Source: an uncultured Kineosporia sp.
GTDB lineage: Bacteria > Actinomycetota > Actinomycetes > Actinomycetales > Kineosporiaceae
Assembly (NCBI GenBank): GCA_937859855.1
Contig: CALMAR010000425.1
Coordinates: 1-7,058, forward strand
Direction: 5' to 3'
Length of the DNA: 7,058 bases
The notes below the pieces were generated by a model. The model was not told the origin of the DNA. It did no database searches and saw only the letters and a program-made list of their open reading frames with translations. The position numbers and the translations under genes are program-made. Shown here piece after piece: positions 1 through 7,017 of this stretch (positions are counted from its first letter, which is position 1; each line of letters begins with the position of its first letter).

Positions 1-678
1 ATCCCATCCACTTTCGAGCTGCACGGGGTGGATGTGGTGGAACGTCCGGGCACCCTGCCAGCGCGCGCCGGATGGTCGGCCAGCCTGGACCGGGTTCCGG
101 CGCAGTCCTGGAGTGACGCCTTGGTGGTCTGCTGGGAGGTGCTCGACGTCGTCACGGTTCCGGTTCTGGAGATGTCCGGCCTGGGTGAGCTGCGCGAGGT
201 CTTGGTGGACGCCGCGGGCCGGGAGAAGCTGGGCTCCGCAGTTGAGCCCGATGATCAGGCCTGGTGCCGGGATTGGTGGCCGGTCCGTGACCTGAGCGAA
301 GGCGATCGGGTCGAGCCGGGCGGCCTGCGCGACAACTTCTGGTCGGTCCTGACGGGCCGGGCCAGGGTGGCGGGAGCGCGCTGCCTGCTCGCGGTCGACT
401 ACGGGCACCGGCGCGAAACCCGGCCCCTATCCGGCAGTCTGACCGGTTACCGGCAGGGCCGGGCCGTGCCACCCCGGCCGGATGGGACGATGGACATCAC
501 CGCGCACGTGGCGATGGACGCCGTCGCCGCCGCTGGGATCCGGGCCGGCGCTGTGTCGTCCCGGCTGACCAGCCAGGGCGACGCCCTGAGCGAGCTGGGG
601 GTGAGCTCACCGGAACTGCTCGATCCCGGCGGTTTGGGCGGCTTCGACTGGCTGCTGCAGCGGACCGGACCCGCCTGA
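1..678 (+). CDS. MidA-family (COG1565, Methyltransf_28) SAM-dependent methyltransferase, 5'-truncated by window edge
   Basis: The frame is open from base 1 to the TGA at 676-678, giving about 225 visible residues; the SAM-binding N-terminal third lies outside the window. An in-frame GTG at 28 exists, but the reading frame and family similarity continue upstream of it, so I treat the gene as partial. Family features seen: a WE.LD segment (codons 133-147) where MidA proteins carry NE.lD.lP, the LLAVDYGH motif (about 385-408), the TGYR..R.VPP segment and the D.TAHVA.DAV motif near the C-terminus (about 490-525). The eukaryotic member NDUFAF7 is a protein-arginine methyltransferase acting on the complex I subunit NDUFS2; the bacterial substrate is generally unknown. 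Odd points: Trp replaces the usual Asn of the NE motif and Thr replaces the Pro after it. The gene sits 15 bp ahead of a sirtuin on the same strand, so the two are probably cotranscribed. Family assignment is confident; activity and substrate are inference. Confidence 0.85.
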   Translation: MPSTFELHGVDVVERPGTLPARAGWSASLDRVPAQSWSDALVVCWEVLDVVTVPVLEMSGLGELREVLVDAAGREKLGSAVEPDDQAWCRDWWPVRDLSEGDRVEPGGLRDNFWSVLTGRARVAGARCLLAVDYGHRRETRPLSGSLTGYRQGRAVPPRPDGTMDITAHVAMDAVAAAGIRAGAVSSRLTSQGDALSELGVSSPELLDPGGLGGFDWLLQRTGPA

Positions 679-686
679 GCGACACT

Positions 687-690
687 GGAG
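687..690 (+). promoter_or_regulatory. Probable ribosome binding site for the sirtuin gene
   Basis: GGAG ends 3 nt before the ATG at 694. The spacing is shorter than usual, so this is only moderate support for the start, but no better site is present in the 15-bp gap. Confidence 0.35.
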
Positions 691-693
691 CAC

Positions 694-1611
694 ATGCACC
701 AGGAGTTCGAGCGGCTGGCCGACCTGGTCGGGGACGGTGAGGTAGTGGTGCTCAGCGGCGCCGGGCTCTCGACCGATTCGGGGATCCCGGACTACCGCGG
801 CCCGTCCGGTGCGGCCCGGCGGCACGCACCGATGACCTACCAGGTCTTCACCCGGGATCCGCTGGCCCGGCAACGATATTGGGCCCGCAGCTATCTCGGC
901 TGGCGGCAGATCCGTACCGCCCGGCCCAATCCCGGTCACCGCGCGGTCGCCGGGCTCGAGCGGGCCGGGCTGCTCGGCGGCGTGATCACCCAGAACGTGG
1001 ACGGCCTGCACCAGGCGGCCGGAACCCCGGACGCGGTCGAACTGCATGGCGCGCTCAGCCGGGTCATCTGCCTGGACTGTGGCGCGCTCTCCGCCCGGAG
1101 CCGGCTGGATCAGCGGCTGCGCGAGGTCAACGCCGAGTTCGACGCCCGGGCCATGCGTTTCGATCCGGAGGTCAACCCGGATGGCGACGTCGATCTACCC
1201 GGCCACGAGCTGATGAGTTTCGTGACGGTCGGCTGCGAACTGTGTGGCGGCGTGATCAAGCCGGACGTGGTGTTCTTCGGCGAGACCGTCCCGCGGTATC
1301 GGGTAGATCTGAGCTTCCGGTTGGTGGACGACGCTGCCTGTCTCCTCGTTCTGGGCTCATCGCTGACCGTGATGTCTGGCTTCCGGTTCGTGCTGCGCTG
1401 TGCTCAACGGGGCACCCCGGTCGCCATCGTCAATCAGGGTCCGACCCGTGGCGACAAGCACGCCACGGTCCGGCTGGACGCACCGCTGAGCGAGGTGCTC
1501 CCCCGGCTGGCCGGGACCCTCGCGGAGACGGTGACCGCGCCAGCGAGCCGGGACCGGCCCAGTGAGCTCCCTGTCCGGGTGGGAGATGGGACAGCTGGCG
1601 GGCTGACGTAG
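694..1611 (+). CDS. Sir2-family NAD-dependent protein deacylase (sirtuin, SIRT4-like class II by motif)
   Basis: This is a complete 305-residue sirtuin that should remove acyl groups from lysine using NAD+, releasing nicotinamide and O-acyl-ADP-ribose. Seen in order: the NAD-binding motif [15 protein letters not shown] (residues 22-36), the TQNVDGLH motif (99-106), the catalytic His in ELHG (His118), two zinc Cys pairs (Cys126/Cys129 and Cys181/Cys184), and the GSSLTV ribose/NAD segment (221-226). A longer zinc-module insert (about 130-180) lies between the Cys pairs. The [13 protein letters not shown] form of the first motif is typical of class II (SIRT4-like) sirtuins, so the preferred acyl group need not be acetyl. 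The last 25 or so residues look like an unstructured tail. The ATG at 694 is chosen because the conserved Rossmann strand follows about 15 residues later and GGAG lies just upstream (687-690, short 3-nt spacing). No signal peptide or membrane segment, so it is cytosolic. It follows the MidA methyltransferase by 15 bp. Confidence 0.93.
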
Positions 1612-1957
1612 CGGCGTACTCCTGCCCCCCGCGGCCGAGCCCGCTGCGACACCGCGCGAACCCCGCCGTCGCAAAAGCCTGCGCCGCCGCCGCGGACTTC
1701 AGCGCCTCCAGCGCCTCCAGCGCCGTGATCAGCGCCGTGATCAGATCGATCCGCGCCGCATCCAGATTGGTCTCGCCGACAGCAGGGGCGGCATCGCGAC
1801 ATAGGTCCGCGGGCCGGTGGAGCAGTCCGGAGACAGGAGTTTCGGCGGCCCTCATTGGCCGGATCAGAGCCGCCAGCGCCGAAGCGAACTTCGGCAGGAA
1901 CCGGGCCAGGCTGAACCAGTCTCGCCAAAGTCGCTGCAATGCAATGACTTTGACCTG
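1612..1957 (-). pseudogene. Probable DUF222 (HNH endonuclease-associated) N-terminal relic
   Basis: This 348-bp gap between two convergent genes holds no intact gene. On the minus strand, the frame read from about 1957 down to 1612 shows strong G/C third-position bias and a stretch (about 1760-1620) of the form ARIDLI-TAL-EAL-KSAAAAQA-FATAGFA, followed by a shortened RSGLGRGGQ segment. From memory of the family, DUF222 proteins have an R-I-D-L-I/L-x-A-L-E-x-L-K-x-A-x-A-A-x-Q-A-R helix, followed by a GVP...RRGRG(V/I)AAQVALARR segment, so the likeness is specific but short. Nothing after that segment survives: no rest of DUF222 and no HNH motif. The frame has no stop before running antisense into the sirtuin. 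Possible starts (TTG 1939, ATG 1855) lack a convincing Shine-Dalgarno. I read it as a truncated remnant; it could also be a chance open frame in GC-rich DNA. Confidence 0.4.
1701..1742. repeat. Two adjacent short tandem duplications (9 bp x2 and 12 bp x2)
   Basis: AGCGCCTCC occurs twice in tandem (1701-1709, 1710-1718), followed directly by AGCGCCGTGATC twice in tandem (1719-1730, 1731-1742). Both unit lengths are multiples of three. In the minus-strand frame of the DUF222-like relic they read as EAL-EAL and ITAL-ITAL, that is, duplications inside the helix. They look like replication-slippage products. Confidence 0.85.
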
Positions 1958-1959
1958 GC

Positions 1960-3537
1960 TCAGGGCTCTTCTGCTGCCGCCGGTGAGGGCTGTTCCATCC
2001 AGCGTTCCGGGCCGGCCGCACCACGTGCGCCCTCTGCCCGTTCCGCCTGATCGGACAACAACTGTGCGGCGTCGTGCGCGTCCAGATGCGGCACCACGGG
2101 ATGCACCGGCCCCGGGGTCGAGTGCAGCACGAAAGAGGCCACGTTCAGCCTGCGCTGCAGCGGGCCCTGGGCCAGCGCCAGGCTCTGGGTGCGAGCGTGC
2201 GGGACGACGTCCAGCAGCCTGCGCACCCGGCCCCGGCGGATCAGCAGCGCCTGCGTGGTCACCCATACGCCGGTCCGCCGCCACCCCACTGGATCCACCC
2301 ATCGCGCCCGGCGCGGCGCCACCAGGTAACCCTCGTCCGGGCCCGAGCCGGTCAGCCCGGCCTCCACGACCCGCCACGGATCGTGAGGCGCCTGCACTCC
2401 CAGGTCCGGCAGCACCAGGCGGAGGATCCGGATCGCCTCCGGCCGGGTGGCCACCGGCATCAGCCGATACGCCGTCTCGGACCGTTGCTGCCGGCTGCCT
2501 CCGGCGACGTGCCCGGCGATGTTGACCTCGACTGTCCACCAGCCGGCCAGCCGCCACAGCACCGGCTGGGTCAGCCGGACCGCCTGTACCCGCCCCGGCG
2601 GGACGGTCTGCGCGCGATGCTCCAGCAGCCCGTAGCGCAACCGCAGCCCGTCCGGGGAAGTCGCGATCCGGAAGGTGAAACCGCCGTTGAAGCGGCCCCA
2701 GACCAGCCCGATCACCCCGAGCAGAGCCGGGACGGTGGCCAGGAACGGGCCGGCGCTGCGGGCCATGCCCGAGATCACCGCCAGCGCGGCCAGCACGATC
2801 ACCAGCGTGATCACCGGAGTGGACAGCAGCAGTGAGAGCAGCAGCCGCGGCACCGGCACTTCGGCGATCTGCTGCTCCGGCGCTTCGGGGGCCTCCTCGC
2901 CGTCGTCGTACCGCACCCCGGCCGCCCGGGCCAGCAGGTGATTGCGCAGGCTCTGGGCGTCGGTCTCGGTCAGGAACTCCAGCCTCACCCCGGAGTTCCG
3001 CCCACCGGCCACTTCAAGGGTGAGCCGGGCCAGCCCAGCCAGCCGGGCCACGAAGGGCTGGGCCACCTCGATGGTCTGCACCCGGTCCAGCCGGGCGCTG
3101 CGATGCTGGCGAAACAGGATGCCCTGGTTCAGTTCCAGGGCCTCCGGCCCGATCCGGAACCGGGTGACCCGCCACCAGGCATAGGCCAGGCCGCCTCCGG
3201 CCACCAGCACCAGCAGCACCGCGCCGGTGATCAGGGCGATCACCCGGCCGGTGGGTCCGGCCCCGCGCAGGTCCCGCCACCACGAGTCGCCCGCCAGCCC
3301 ATTGCTGGCGTTGTGCCCGAAGAAGATCAGGATGACGATCAGGAACCGCCACGACCGGACCACCGGCGTGAGCGGATGCATCCGATGCCACTGCCCGTCG
3401 GCCAGCCGGATGGATGCGGCCGGCGGAGTCAGCGGATCCGAAGCGACCGGAGGATCCGAAGGGACCTCCGGAACCTGGGGTGCTGGGGGCTGACTGGTCA
3501 CACCCGGGTCACAGACCAGCCAGCCGGGCCTGGCCAC
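1960..3537 (-). CDS. Three-bPH2-domain membrane protein (YdbT-like)
   Basis: This is a 525-residue membrane protein of the bacterial pleckstrin-homology (bPH2/DUF304, PF03703) family. In order: a Pro-rich N-terminus (15-42), the W-x-x-x-H-P-L-T-P entry motif (50-58), hydrophobic segments at about 62-74 and 98-121, a first PH-like domain (about 122-205), two more hydrophobic segments (about 230-257 and 263-281), a second PH domain (about 282-375) and a third (about 410-498), then an acidic/Ala-rich tail. This is the YdbT architecture. In Bacillus subtilis the ydbS-ydbT pair belongs to the cell-envelope-stress SigW regulon and contributes to resistance to an antimicrobial peptide; the molecular activity is unknown. 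The start is uncertain. The GTG at 3537 overlaps the upstream gene by 29 bp, while a GTG at 3501 would begin 7 nt after its stop; neither has a clear Shine-Dalgarno. The conserved part starts near residue 50, so the choice does not affect the domains. Confidence 0.85.
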
Positions 3538-4033
3538 GGGAGGCCAGTCGGTCTCGCAGCCGGGCGGCCTCCTCCTCGAGCACCCCGGGGATGACCGCGT
3601 CGGTGGACGCCGAGGCGGTGTGCAGCTGCACCTGGGCGATGTGGAACGCGCGCTCCAGCGGACCGGCCTGCACGTCGACGAACTGCATCCGCCCGTAGGG
3701 CACCACCACCATCGAGCGGAACATCAGCCCCTTGCGGATCAGCAGATCGTCCGAGCGCTCGGCATAACCGTAGGCCGCGACCTGTCGGCCGATCGTGATC
3801 CAGCCGAAAACCGCTGCCCCGAGCGGAATCAGCAGGGCCAGGTAGAGCGCAGGCAGACCGGTGACGACGCCGAGCACAACGATCAGGACCGCGAGGACGG
3901 CGAGCAGCCCGAGCATCAGCACCCGGCGCAAGGAGGCCAGCGCCACCGCCACCGGCGTCCAGGTGATCCCGGCCGGGCTGAATACATCCGCACCCGGGCG
4001 CAGCCCCCGGCCGGAGCGCGGTACCGACGTCAT
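3509..4033 (-). CDS. Single-bPH2-domain membrane protein (YdbS-like)
   Basis: This is a 174-residue protein with two adjacent membrane helices (about 35-57 and 60-80) followed by one bPH2 domain (about 82-165). The diagnostic stretch runs from residue 111 to 140: [11 protein letters not shown], a GPLERAF turn, then a Q-V-x-L-H-T-A-S strand, as in the DUF304/YdbS family. The ATG at 4033 is chosen because it gives the short, Arg-rich N-terminus usual in this family; the frame stays open far upstream, but that stretch is antisense to the NuoD-like gene. Its stop lies within or just before the start of the larger bPH2 gene, so the two are almost certainly cotranslated from one mRNA in the order YdbS-YdbT and probably form one membrane complex. 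Transcription should start in the 51-bp divergent gap shared with the NuoD-like gene. No Shine-Dalgarno is evident before the ATG. Confidence 0.87.
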
Positions 4034-4084
4034 GCCGGCAGCATCGCACAAGGGCCCGCCCCGGATCAGTGGCAGACTCCCACC
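4034..4084. promoter_or_regulatory. Divergent intergenic region shared by the bPH2 operon and the NuoD-like gene
   Basis: Only 51 bp separate the ATG of the minus-strand YdbS-like gene from the GTG of the plus-strand NuoD-like gene, so both promoters must sit here or inside the neighbouring coding sequence. Neither start has a recognisable Shine-Dalgarno, which fits leaderless transcripts, common in Actinomycetota. A weak -10-like hexamer (CAGACT, 4073-4078) lies 6 nt before the GTG, but I see no matching -35. The region call rests on layout; the exact elements are not resolved. Confidence 0.4.
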
Positions 4085-5275
4085 GTGACCGCCACTCAGC
4101 CTGGCCCGGCTCAGGACGGCCCGGCCGCGTTCACGGTGGGTATGGGTGCCGGGGCGCTGGCGACGTCCGACATGGTGCTGAACATCGGCCCCCAGCACCC
4201 GGCCACCCACGGTGTGCTCCGGTTGCGGGTCGTCGTGGACGGCGAGCGGGTGGTCAGCGCCGAGCCGATCGTGGGCTACATGCACCGCGGGGCGGAGAAA
4301 CTGTTCGAGGTCCGGGACTACCGGCAGATCATCGTGCTGGCCAACCGGCACGACTGGCTGTCCGCCTTCGCCAACGAACTCGGGGTGGTGCTGGCCGCCG
4401 AGGAACTGCTGGGGATGGAGGTTCCGGTCCGCGCGGTCTGGGCCCGGACCCTGCTGGCCGAGCTCAACCGGGTGCTGAACCACCTGATGTTCTCCGGGTC
4501 GTATCCGCTGGAACTGGGCGCGATCACGCCGGTGTTCTACGCCTTCACCGAGCGGGAAGAGCTTCAGGCGGTGATGGAGGAGGTGTCGGGCGGGCGGATG
4601 CACTTCATGTTCAACCGGGTCGGCGGGCTGAAGGAGGACCTGCCCGCCGGATGGCTGAACCGGGTACTGGCCGCCACCGCATCGGTGCGAAAGCGATTGC
4701 CCCGCTTGGAATCCATGCTGATCGGCAATGAGATCCTGCGGGCCCGGACCCGGGACGTCGGCGTGCTGGACAAGGCCACCGCGGCCGCGTTCGGGGTGAG
4801 CGGGCCGATCGCCCGGGCCAGCGGGCTGGACCTGGACCTGCGCCGGGACGAGCCCTACCTGGCTTACGGAGAACTGTTCGCCGCCGGCGGCCCCGGCCGG
4901 GTGGTGAGCCGCTCCGAGGGCGACTGCCTGGCCCGCTTCGAGGTGCTGCTGGAGCAGATCCACGTCAGCCTCGACCTGATCGAGGTGTGCGCAGACCGGC
5001 TGCGCTCCCTTCCGGCCGGCCCGATCAACGTGCGGCTGCCCAAGGTGCTTCGCGTACCCGAGGGGCACATCTATCGCTGGACCGAGAACCCGCTGGGCAT
5101 CAACGGTTACTACCTGGTCTCCAAGGGCGACAAGGTGCCCTGGCGGCTGAAACTGCGCTCGGCGTCGTTCAACAACGTTCAGGTGCTCAGCCGGTTGCTG
5201 CCTGGCTGCCTGATCTCCGACCTGGTCGCCGTGCTCGGCTCGACCTTCTTCGTGGTCGGCGACGTCGACAAGTAG
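4085..5275 (+). CDS. nuoD: Stand-alone NuoD-like protein (49-kDa/NDUFS2 family), divergent paralogue
   Basis: This is a 396-residue homologue of complex I subunit NuoD, which helps form the quinone pocket in the peripheral arm. Conserved features: [15 protein letters not shown] (33-47, with the quinone-site His at 42), the HRG.EKL motif (67-73, Arg68 aligning with NDUFS2 Arg85), the NRVLNHLM helix (128-135), the SGGRMH and GG.KEDLP segments (168-187), and the C-terminal P.G..GYYLVS.G...P.R.K.R..SF region (336-362). It lacks the paired CxxC nickel ligands of [NiFe] hydrogenases. Aligned by eye to bovine NDUFS2, Tyr108 of the pocket is Trp91 and Asp160 is Glu143, and the canonical GSLDIV.GEVDR end is [12 protein letters not shown]. 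At 396 residues it is shorter than typical actinobacterial NuoD, and no other nuo gene flanks it. The GTG at 4085 is chosen because upstream sequence is antisense to the bPH2 gene; an ATG at 4142 is an alternative. Automatic annotation as NADH-quinone oxidoreductase subunit D is likely, but a complex I role is doubtful. Confidence 0.88.
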
Positions 5276-5898: not shown

Positions 5899-7017
5899 TC
5901 AGTGCCGGGCGAACTGGGAGGCCATAGCGGCCTGGGTCTCGATCACCGCGCCGATCCGGGCCTGGACCGAATCCATCCGGCCGATGATCTCGCTGGTGGC
6001 GTGGATACCGGACGCCACCGACGTGGTGTTGGCCTGGATGGCCGCGATCTGCTCGGCCACCTGCCCGGTGGCGTGCGCGGTCTCGCGGGCCAGCTCCTTC
6101 ACCTCGCTGGCCACCACGGCGAAACCCTTGCCGACGTCCCCGGCCCGGGCCGCTTCGATGGTGGCATTCAGGGCCAGCAGGTTGGTCTGGTCGGCGATGC
6201 TGGAAATGATCTTGATGACATCGCCGATGGCCGCCGAGGCCTGGCCCAGGTTGTCCACCTCGCCGGTCATCGTCCCAGCCCGGGCGACCGCCTCGTTGGC
6301 CACCTGCTGGGCATCCTGGGTGGCCGCCCGCAACTGGGACACGGTCTCCAGCAGCCCTCGCGAGTTGTCCGCCTCCATCTCCGCCCGCTGCAGGGATTCG
6401 ATCCGCTGGGACACCAGTTGCTGCACGTTGCGCAGCGCCGACACCCGGGAGTCCGACAGCTTCAGCGTCCGGGTGGCCAGGAAGTCCATGGTGGCGATCA
6501 CCCGGCCGCCAATGATGATCGGAAAGCACATCGCCGACCGGATCCCGGAGCGGGGCGCCGCGGCGGCCCGCGCGCAGTCGGGCAGGTCGGCCAGGTTGGG
6601 CACGAACACCAGGTCGCGAGACTTCCAGGCCCGCCCGGACAGGCCTGCTCCCTCGGAATACGAGGCGGCCAGCGTCACCCGGCGGAATTCCTCGCCGGGA
6701 GAACCGGATTCGAGCCCGAACCGGAGCACGTGGTGGTCCTCGTCCATCTTCCAGTAGCAGCCGTAGACCCAGCCGAAGGCCTTCCGCACCATCTCCAGCG
6801 CGATCCGCACCGCGGAATCCACATCCTGAGCCTGCGAGATTCCGCCGACCACCGTGGTCACCGCCAGCCGGTCATCGGCGATCTCGCTCAGCTGGGCCTG
6901 GGCGATCACCCGGGCCACGGCCAGGTCGGCCACCTTGGCCAGCGCCGAGATCTTGGCCGCCCGGCCGGGATCTAAACCCAGCCGGTTCCCGCGGTAGTAC
7001 TCCAGCGCGGCGATCAC
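5899..7017 (-). CDS. Soluble GAF-domain methyl-accepting chemotaxis-type signal transducer
   Basis: This 372-residue protein has a helical N-terminus (1-50), a GAF sensory domain (about 50-205) and a short chemoreceptor signalling domain (about 206-372). The hairpin tip that contacts CheA and CheW is clear: [20 protein letters not shown] (274-293), followed by [15 protein letters not shown] (296-310). The two helical arms are only about 80-87 residues long. I see no HAMP domain, no membrane helix and no C-terminal CheR/CheB tether, so it is a cytosolic, short-arm receptor. The GAF domain probably senses a small molecule or redox state; Cys87, Cys148 and Cys164 are present, but no heme or chromophore motif is recognised. 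The GTG at 7017 is preceded at 7-nt spacing by GGAGAG, which supports it. However, the frame stays open to the window edge with coding-like, Pro-rich sequence, so a start outside the window cannot be excluded. No che genes are in the window. Confidence 0.87.

Follow-up and report, generated by a model that had tools for sequence, protein, structure and literature searches.

The 7,058-nucleotide stretch of an uncultured Kineosporia sp. analyzed here (contig CALMAR010000425.1 of assembly GCA_937859855.1; hereafter, the window) carries, on the forward strand, the 3' part of a midA gene (1..678), encoding an S-adenosylmethionine (SAM)-dependent methyltransferase of family PF02636, and a nuoD-like gene (4085..5275). 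The midA frame is open from the first base of the window and ends with a stop codon at 676-678; the 5' end of the gene lies beyond the window, which thus holds the C-terminal 225 amino acids, including a DITAHV motif, and the match to PF02636 (43.7 bits) exceeds the curated cut-off of 23.3. The nuoD-like gene, with a GTG start at 4085 and a stop codon at 5273-5275, encodes 396 amino acids that match PF00346 at 229 bits and score 368 bits against TIGR01962, the equivalog model of canonical NuoD, below its cut-off of 459.35 bits. These open frames and family matches confirm a preceding interpretation made from the nucleotides alone (hereafter, the sequence-only reading) in that the two genes lie on one strand. 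That reading also suggested that they form a bacterial enzyme-substrate pair of the NDUFAF7-NDUFS2 type, with a stand-alone NuoD paralogue as the substrate; gene neighbourhood and co-occurrence make such a pair likely, whereas the stand-alone paralogue did not hold up. Instead, the PF00346 match, the position of the protein in phylogenetic trees and the nuo clusters of related genomes suggest that this gene is the displaced nuoD of nuo2, a second complex I without the NADH module NuoEFG. MidA probably dimethylates Arg68 of the encoded protein for its maturation.

The putative MidA target, Arg68, is encoded by the CGC codon at 4286..4288 (forward strand), within the motif GYMHRGAEK. In bovine chain 5o31_D it falls on residue 85 (residue 27 of the window protein pairs with residue 44 of the 430-residue chain), in Yarrowia 6gcs_C on residue 121 and in Thermus 2fug_4 on residue 64, a Thr, all of which are the published sites; these placements derive from residue ranges, the gapless stretch having been seen in other alignments than these three. 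The proposal of the sequence-only reading that Arg68 is the counterpart of NDUFS2 Arg85 is confirmed by the residue ranges against the bovine chain. NDUFAF7, a member of PF02636, is the mitochondrial point of comparison, with the same enzyme family, a substrate of the NuoD/49 kDa family and the target arginine in an HRGxE motif. In mitochondria, NDUFS2 is methylated by NDUFAF7 while complex I is being built, and complex I assembly depends on this step (PMC3829151; this and the other papers cited are used from excerpts of their text). The equivalent NuoD arginine is symmetrically dimethylated in Paracoccus denitrificans and unmodified in E. coli (PMC3750175, in part), so that the function of bacterial MidA proteins, for which the sequence-only reading offered a testable candidate, is not a blank.

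To place the window in context, the best 80 of at least 585 NuoD-like orthologs were followed on their genome contigs (loci numbered with L), and 298 Actinomycetota genomes (numbered with G) were surveyed for MidA by Pfam family search and for NuoD by a profile of the window protein. The strong matches to the profile split into group A, the orthologs of the window gene (above 700 bits, 23 genomes), group B1 (469-545 bits, 38 genomes) and group B2 (408-446 bits, 34 genomes). Of the 298 genomes, 83 have a match to the Pfam MidA family; among control genomes, the same search detected it in Caulobacter, Synechococcus and Haloferax, whereas E. coli and Thermus gave no match. Stray MidA labels (e.g. 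L174, L188 and L323), which arose from shadow-frame extensions of some MidA queries, were excluded from the counts.

MidA adjoins 75 of the 80 NuoD-like orthologs on the fetched contigs. At the five loci without MidA (L005, L010, L030, L058 and L073), the contigs stop 1.3-5.0 kb upstream of the nuoD-like gene, and broader MidA queries left the count unchanged. All 23 group A genomes have midA and nuoD within 7 kb of each other on one contig, in either relative orientation (the MidA of G217, missed by the Pfam search, was recovered by tblastn). In group B2, 33 of the 34 NuoDs are encoded inside an operon nuoABCDHIJKLMN, and MidA is present in 33 of the 34 genomes, the exception being G129, with its nuoD on a 4.8 kb contig; in 21 of the 34, midA directly follows the last recognised nuo gene, in the orientation of nuoD and 7.6-9.1 kb downstream of it. 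An 862-amino-acid open frame in G203 that resembled a nuoN-midA fusion was rejected as such: its front part is a shadow frame without similarity to NuoN. Group B1 includes five stand-alone NuoDs, and MidA is found in all five of these genomes, within 10 kb in four and on another contig in one. Two further genomes show nuoD alone (G012) and nuoC-nuoD (G026) beside midA. Altogether, every genome with a stand-alone NuoD encodes MidA (29/29; 23 from group A, five from B1 and G012). The pairing of midA and nuoD is non-random.

Around most of the 80 loci, including the group A pair, the genes sit in a fol/pan block, panC-DUF2520 ... folP-folE-ftsH, which encloses the pair and raises the alternative that midA and nuoD are neighbours merely through a long-conserved segment of the chromosome. 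This account is largely refuted, and we consider it very improbable: the pair also occurs where the search detected no fol/pan genes (L100-L105) and at the ends of nuo2 operons, and within group A it is found in either relative orientation. No fol/pan genes were found near the five stand-alone B1 nuoDs, nor near those of G012 and G026, whose contigs are 7.7 and 4.2 kb long, and shared synteny as the sole cause of the pairing was rejected.

On the map, the displaced gene is isolated: no other nuo genes were found around the group A nuoD in 22 of 22 stretches of 11-19 kb, nor in 79 of the 80 loci. The remaining locus is L024 (Flexivirga caeni), where NuoM- and NuoN-like genes (18764-20857) lie about 7.6 kb from the displaced nuoD. 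This isolation, along with a Trp in place of the quinone-site Tyr (see below), is what would be expected if the NuoD-like protein stood alone, with a role outside complex I. The NuoB/NuoD search of group A points in a different direction. In 22 of the 23 genomes, it recovered a canonical NuoD and an Arg-type NuoB together with a second, Thr-type NuoB, and when the regions of the second NuoB were examined in 30 genomes (23 from group A, the five with a stand-alone B1 NuoD, G012 and G026), no NuoD match was obtained within the nuo2 cluster in any of the 30; the sole NuoD match, at a distance of 12 kb in L218, belongs to the canonical gene. Most of these D-less regions have the order ABC-HIJKLMN, complete or as far as the stretch reaches; the nuo2 of G012 shows no D, and that of G026 neither C nor D, the genes found beside midA in these two genomes. 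In ten regions, 65-230 bases separate the nuoC match from the nuoH match; in others, the gap reaches as much as 2.5 kb. In Nonomuraea gerenzanensis (NZ_LT559118), for example, the order is korB-korA, nuoA, nuoB, nuoC, nuoH, nuoI-N, the nuoC and nuoH matches are 125 bases apart, and midA and nuoD lie about 0.7 Mb from nuo2. (This 11.85 Mb replicon, NZ_LT559118.1 in L116 and L323, is chromosome-sized and carries nuo and fol genes, and is catalogued as a plasmid.) In short stretches from Streptomyces werraensis, S. albus, Janibacter indicus, Knoellia subterranea and Actinopolymorpha pittospori, nuoC is likewise followed by nuoH without a NuoD match. G217 gave no match to canonical NuoD or NuoB; it has a single NuoB, in a D-less nuo2, and a single NuoD, the displaced one.

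Thus, a companion D-less nuo cluster is present in all 23 group A relatives of the window, three of the clusters being incomplete, and the protein that the sequence-only reading took for a stand-alone paralogue is isolated on the map only; very likely, it is the NuoD missing from the second nuo cluster. A role outside complex I appears highly unlikely given the D-less nuo2 clusters in the same genomes, the agreement of the trees and the reciprocal Arg/Thr pattern described below; the Trp is no argument for it either, being found also in the EFG-less NuoDs that are encoded within full operons.

In the NuoD tree (150 rows), the window protein groups with group A at 100% support in the Shimodaira-Hasegawa-like approximate likelihood ratio test (SH-aLRT), within the EFG-less clade and separate from the canonical NuoDs; at 99% SH-aLRT it belongs to a 51-row set that consists of group A, the five stand-alone B1 NuoDs and 23 operonic B1 NuoDs. 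In the NuoB tree (101 rows), the D-less NuoBs of group A join those of these 23 operonic B1 genomes at 96%, the genomes with one of the five stand-alone B1 NuoDs branch next (99%), and G012 groups with G026 at 100%, as it does for NuoD. The two trees conflict over where the pair G012-G026 and ten further B1 genomes branch; both are quick trees with open forks, and group A and the five B1 genomes may or may not share a single relocation. Overall, the displaced NuoDs and the D-less NuoBs show broadly the same groupings.

The residues next to cluster N2 provide a further line of evidence. In Yarrowia, NDUFS2 has an Arg and NDUFS7 a Thr, whereas in Thermus, Nqo4 has a Thr and Nqo6 an Arg, and the two arginines occupy the same space beside N2 (PMC8042128, in part). 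The same two pairings, NuoD-Thr with NuoB-Arg and NuoD-Arg with NuoB-Thr, are found here; however, whereas the intersubunit switch between Thermus and Yarrowia runs between species (PMC8042128), both states occur here inside one cell, in two complexes. The displaced NuoD has Arg at the site in 23 of 23 group A rows (the window and 22 relatives), and the canonical NuoD has GYLHTGIEK, with Thr, in each of the 26 genomes examined (20 from the sample and six via loci, of which G001 is also in the sample). Conversely, all 30 D-less NuoBs of relatives carry Thr (three of them read by eye), and canonical NuoB has Arg in both Actinomycete proteins read; a DNA pattern detected this Arg form in every group A genome except G217 (22 of 23). 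Thr is likewise present in every operonic NuoB read at the protein level, 33 from B1 and 32 from B2 (three by eye); by DNA pattern, Thr-type NuoB was counted in 28 of the 34 B2 and 29 of the 38 B1 genomes, which are undercounts because the patterns miss variants. Arg alone is common in NuoD (in E. coli, too, the NuoD Arg is accompanied by a NuoB Thr), and it is telling here because genomes of this kind also encode a NuoD with Thr at the site. The reciprocal pattern therefore suggests that each NuoD fits only the NuoB of its own complex.

This switch argues against hybrids between nuo2 and the canonical enzyme, which have been proposed for the nuo2 of Streptomyces coelicolor (SCO4599-SCO4608), a cluster of unclear function (PMC9239103, in part). 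Judging from its description in that paper, it corresponds to the second nuo cluster seen here, with nuoD and nuoEFG missing; the excerpt available also lists C and L as absent, whereas here C is detectable in two Streptomyces stretches and L in other D-less regions. The presence of both clusters in one cell, together with the published suggestion, favours the idea that the displaced NuoD exchanges with canonical NuoD. In such hybrids, however, N2 would be provided with either two arginines or none (Arg with Arg, or NuoD-Thr with NuoB-Thr), and the displaced NuoD lacks the canonical segment that contains LIHHFKL; we regard the exchange as a scarcely credible alternative. In PMC9239103, as far as excerpted, the S. 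coelicolor nuo2 has no assigned D, whereas we propose a D subunit for nuo2 from the genomes of other species.

The distribution of MidA follows the arginine. MidA is present in 82 of the 119 genomes with an Arg-type NuoD compared to 2 of the 179 genomes without one, in sets made by hand and with kinship ignored; of the latter genomes, 72 have HTG at the site, MidA being found in two of these. The Arg-type set was assembled from DNA pattern matches and sequence reads; the matches in G204, G165, G044, G042 and G294 and four second matches were dropped as chance on sequence alone, and the class GF[VI]HRGLEK (25 genomes, none with MidA) was left out; when this class is added, the counts become 82/144 and 2/154. 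One of the two outcomes that the sequence-only reading named as refuting it, a lack of conserved neighbourhood or co-occurrence, was thus not observed; both are present, and strongly so (75/80 loci, 23/23 group A genomes and 82/119 vs 2/179). Among 30 MidA-negative genomes, picked non-randomly by a high score to the window-protein profile, the NuoD motif is HTG in 4, HRG in 8 and HRC in 18. The HRC loci, in which Cys replaces the Gly that follows the arginine, are L302, L305 and L307-L322.

Several observations weigh against methylation of Arg68 by MidA or against the relocation of nuoD from nuo2. There are 23 genomes with an operonic nuo2 NuoD bearing Arg and no MidA match, and 10 further genomes with MidA non-adjacent to such an NuoD, so that MidA is not always needed. 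Conversely, G078 and G169 encode MidA although their sole NuoD match is Thr-type. The MidA proteins of group A are divergent, at 33-77 bits to PF02636, with that of G217 missed by the Pfam search; the window MidA deviates from the usual ANExLDNLP motif, and an Ala takes the place of the first Gly in the SAM motif in 14 of the 71 readable MidA rows (11 from group A and three from B2; e.g. DMAAGRGEL). Among the nuo2 clusters, some nuoC-nuoH gaps, at 1.0-2.5 kb, have room for a gene, yet no NuoD match was found there. Three group A clusters are incomplete where fetched, with NuoD and MidA retained: in L213 (G061), nuoH is in pieces in two frames (9930-10837) and J-N are not found; in L215 (G001), a Kineosporia closely related to the window, I-N are not found in about 6 kb past nuoH; and in L216 (G166), B and C are 5 kb apart and I-N are not found in the last 2.8 kb. 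Finally, G195 has a nuo2-type NuoB (GTLTDKMAP; C40:35355), but no Arg-type NuoD was found in this genome.

Some of these points are compatible with a MidA that aids nuo2 assembly but leaves Arg68 unmethylated, either by modifying a different residue or subunit or by acting as a chaperone: the Arg is kept without MidA in 23 genomes, the group A MidA is divergent and shows the Gly-to-Ala replacement in the SAM motif in 11 of its rows, and the connection between MidA and NuoD seen here is one of gene linkage. Such a role is a minority possibility that nevertheless deserves consideration. It is at odds with the association of MidA with the Arg itself, with the GxG of the SAM motif, which is retained in 57 of the 71 readable MidA relatives (in the window, the N-terminal half of the protein is out of reach), and with the finding that this very residue is the one methylated by the mitochondrial family member (PMC3829151, in part). 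A displaced D subunit of nuo2 with Arg68 dimethylated by MidA remains our preferred explanation; we consider it probable, slightly less so in view of the changes in the SAM motif.

With regard to electron input, the genes for KorAB, a 2-oxoacid:ferredoxin oxidoreductase, adjoin the D-less nuo2 (KorA in 15 and KorB in 13 of the 30 regions; for instance, 550-3619 in L211, 15509-18500 in L203 and 4569-7443 in L323), and neither was found in the other 103 regions searched. KorA scores above its NCBIfam cut-off; KorB is best matched by 2-oxoacid oxidoreductase beta models, below their cut-offs. An F420 or NADH module in the gaps of nuo2 was considered and rejected, the open reading frames tested being carboxypeptidase-regulatory-like, DUF2252 (twice) and, in one case, unassigned, with KorAB located upstream instead. 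Because KorAB adjoins half of the D-less clusters and nuo2 has no NADH module, ferredoxin is a plausible electron donor. At the acceptor side, Trp91 of the window protein (codon 4355..4357, forward strand) takes the place of the quinone-site Tyr, which is Tyr87 in Thermus. The replacement is found in all 23 group A rows, the window included, and is common to the group A, B1 and B2 NuoDs read, whereas the canonical NuoDs read keep Tyr; the acceptor site of the EFG-less complex may therefore differ from the canonical one.

We infer from these comparisons how the displaced NuoD could assemble with nuo2, be methylated by MidA and serve a complex with its own electron input. The NuoD-like protein would be the D subunit of a second complex I without the NADH module, the remainder of which would be encoded elsewhere in the genome, nuoD having departed that operon to the side of midA. 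MidA would, most likely, dimethylate Arg68 as NDUFAF7 does Arg85 of NDUFS2, and the methylated NuoD would then join the nuo2 NuoB, with Arg68 reaching across to N2. There, the nuo2 NuoB would offer Thr where canonical NuoB has Arg, and Arg68 might help NuoD and NuoB to hold together during assembly; electrons would perhaps come from ferredoxin via KorAB. A broader and more tentative extension, which we consider possible though somewhat doubtful, is that many Actinomycetes contain two complex I enzymes per cell with opposite solutions at N2, namely, an NADH enzyme with the NuoB arginine and a ferredoxin-type nuo2 with a MidA-dependent NuoD arginine, and that, since nuoD has separated from the operon to lie with the methylase gene, production and methylation of NuoD may act as a separately controlled gate for nuo2 assembly.

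The chemistry itself is known, including its bacterial occurrence: Nqo4 of Paracoccus denitrificans is likewise a bacterial NuoD, with the equivalent arginine symmetrically dimethylated (PMC3750175, in part). What did not turn up in the literature searched is a protein proposed as the D subunit of nuo2, a nuoD of this kind displaced to the side of midA, or the presence of both arginine solutions in one cell. Given the known methylation in Paracoccus, the novelty therefore rests on the partner, the relocation and the in-cell contrast; Nqo4 presumably belongs to canonical complex I, unlike nuo2. The system differs from NDUFAF7-NDUFS2, too, in that the bacterial complex is EFG-less, nuoD is displaced beside the methylase gene and methylation is a prediction. 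The closest gene set compared is nuoABCDHIJKLMN of Desulfitobacterium hafniense, which is also EFG-less, but with nuoD within the operon (PMC11238625, in part); a term search of the text available from that paper gave no occurrence of 'methyl'. Neither midA beside a bacterial nuoD nor a D subunit of nuo2 was found among the titles and abstract openings searched, most subscription journals lying outside the search.

For the Streptomyces-type nuo2, published as devoid of NuoD and further subunits and of unclear function (PMC9239103, in part), these observations propose the missing subunit along with its likely maturation enzyme. The mechanism of the arginine and its methyl groups at N2 is described as yet unconfirmed (PMC8042128, in part). 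A cell with both a NuoB-arginine complex and a complex with a methylatable NuoD arginine would be a natural control for their role, in bacteria that are harmless and genetically tractable, and a mitochondrial-type modification of complex I becomes testable in soil bacteria.

The remaining genes of the window lie outside the conserved unit or in its variable vicinity. Between midA and nuoD, a Sir2-family NAD-dependent deacetylase gene (694..1611, forward strand) starts 15 bases after midA; it belongs outside the conserved unit, and the window Sir2 had no tblastn match at E <= 1e-5 among the related loci searched and adjoins none of the 80 orthologs. Also between midA and nuoD, on the opposite strand, are genes for a long (1960..3537) and a short (3509..4033) bPH_2 protein, a pair that occurs in the vicinity of midA and nuoD in some relatives (18 of the 80 loci). 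Both Sir2 and bPH_2 were accordingly rejected as conserved partners. Downstream of nuoD, the window contains one small gene without a Pfam match and one gene (5899-7017) for a chemoreceptor-like protein that combines GAF and MCP signalling domains.

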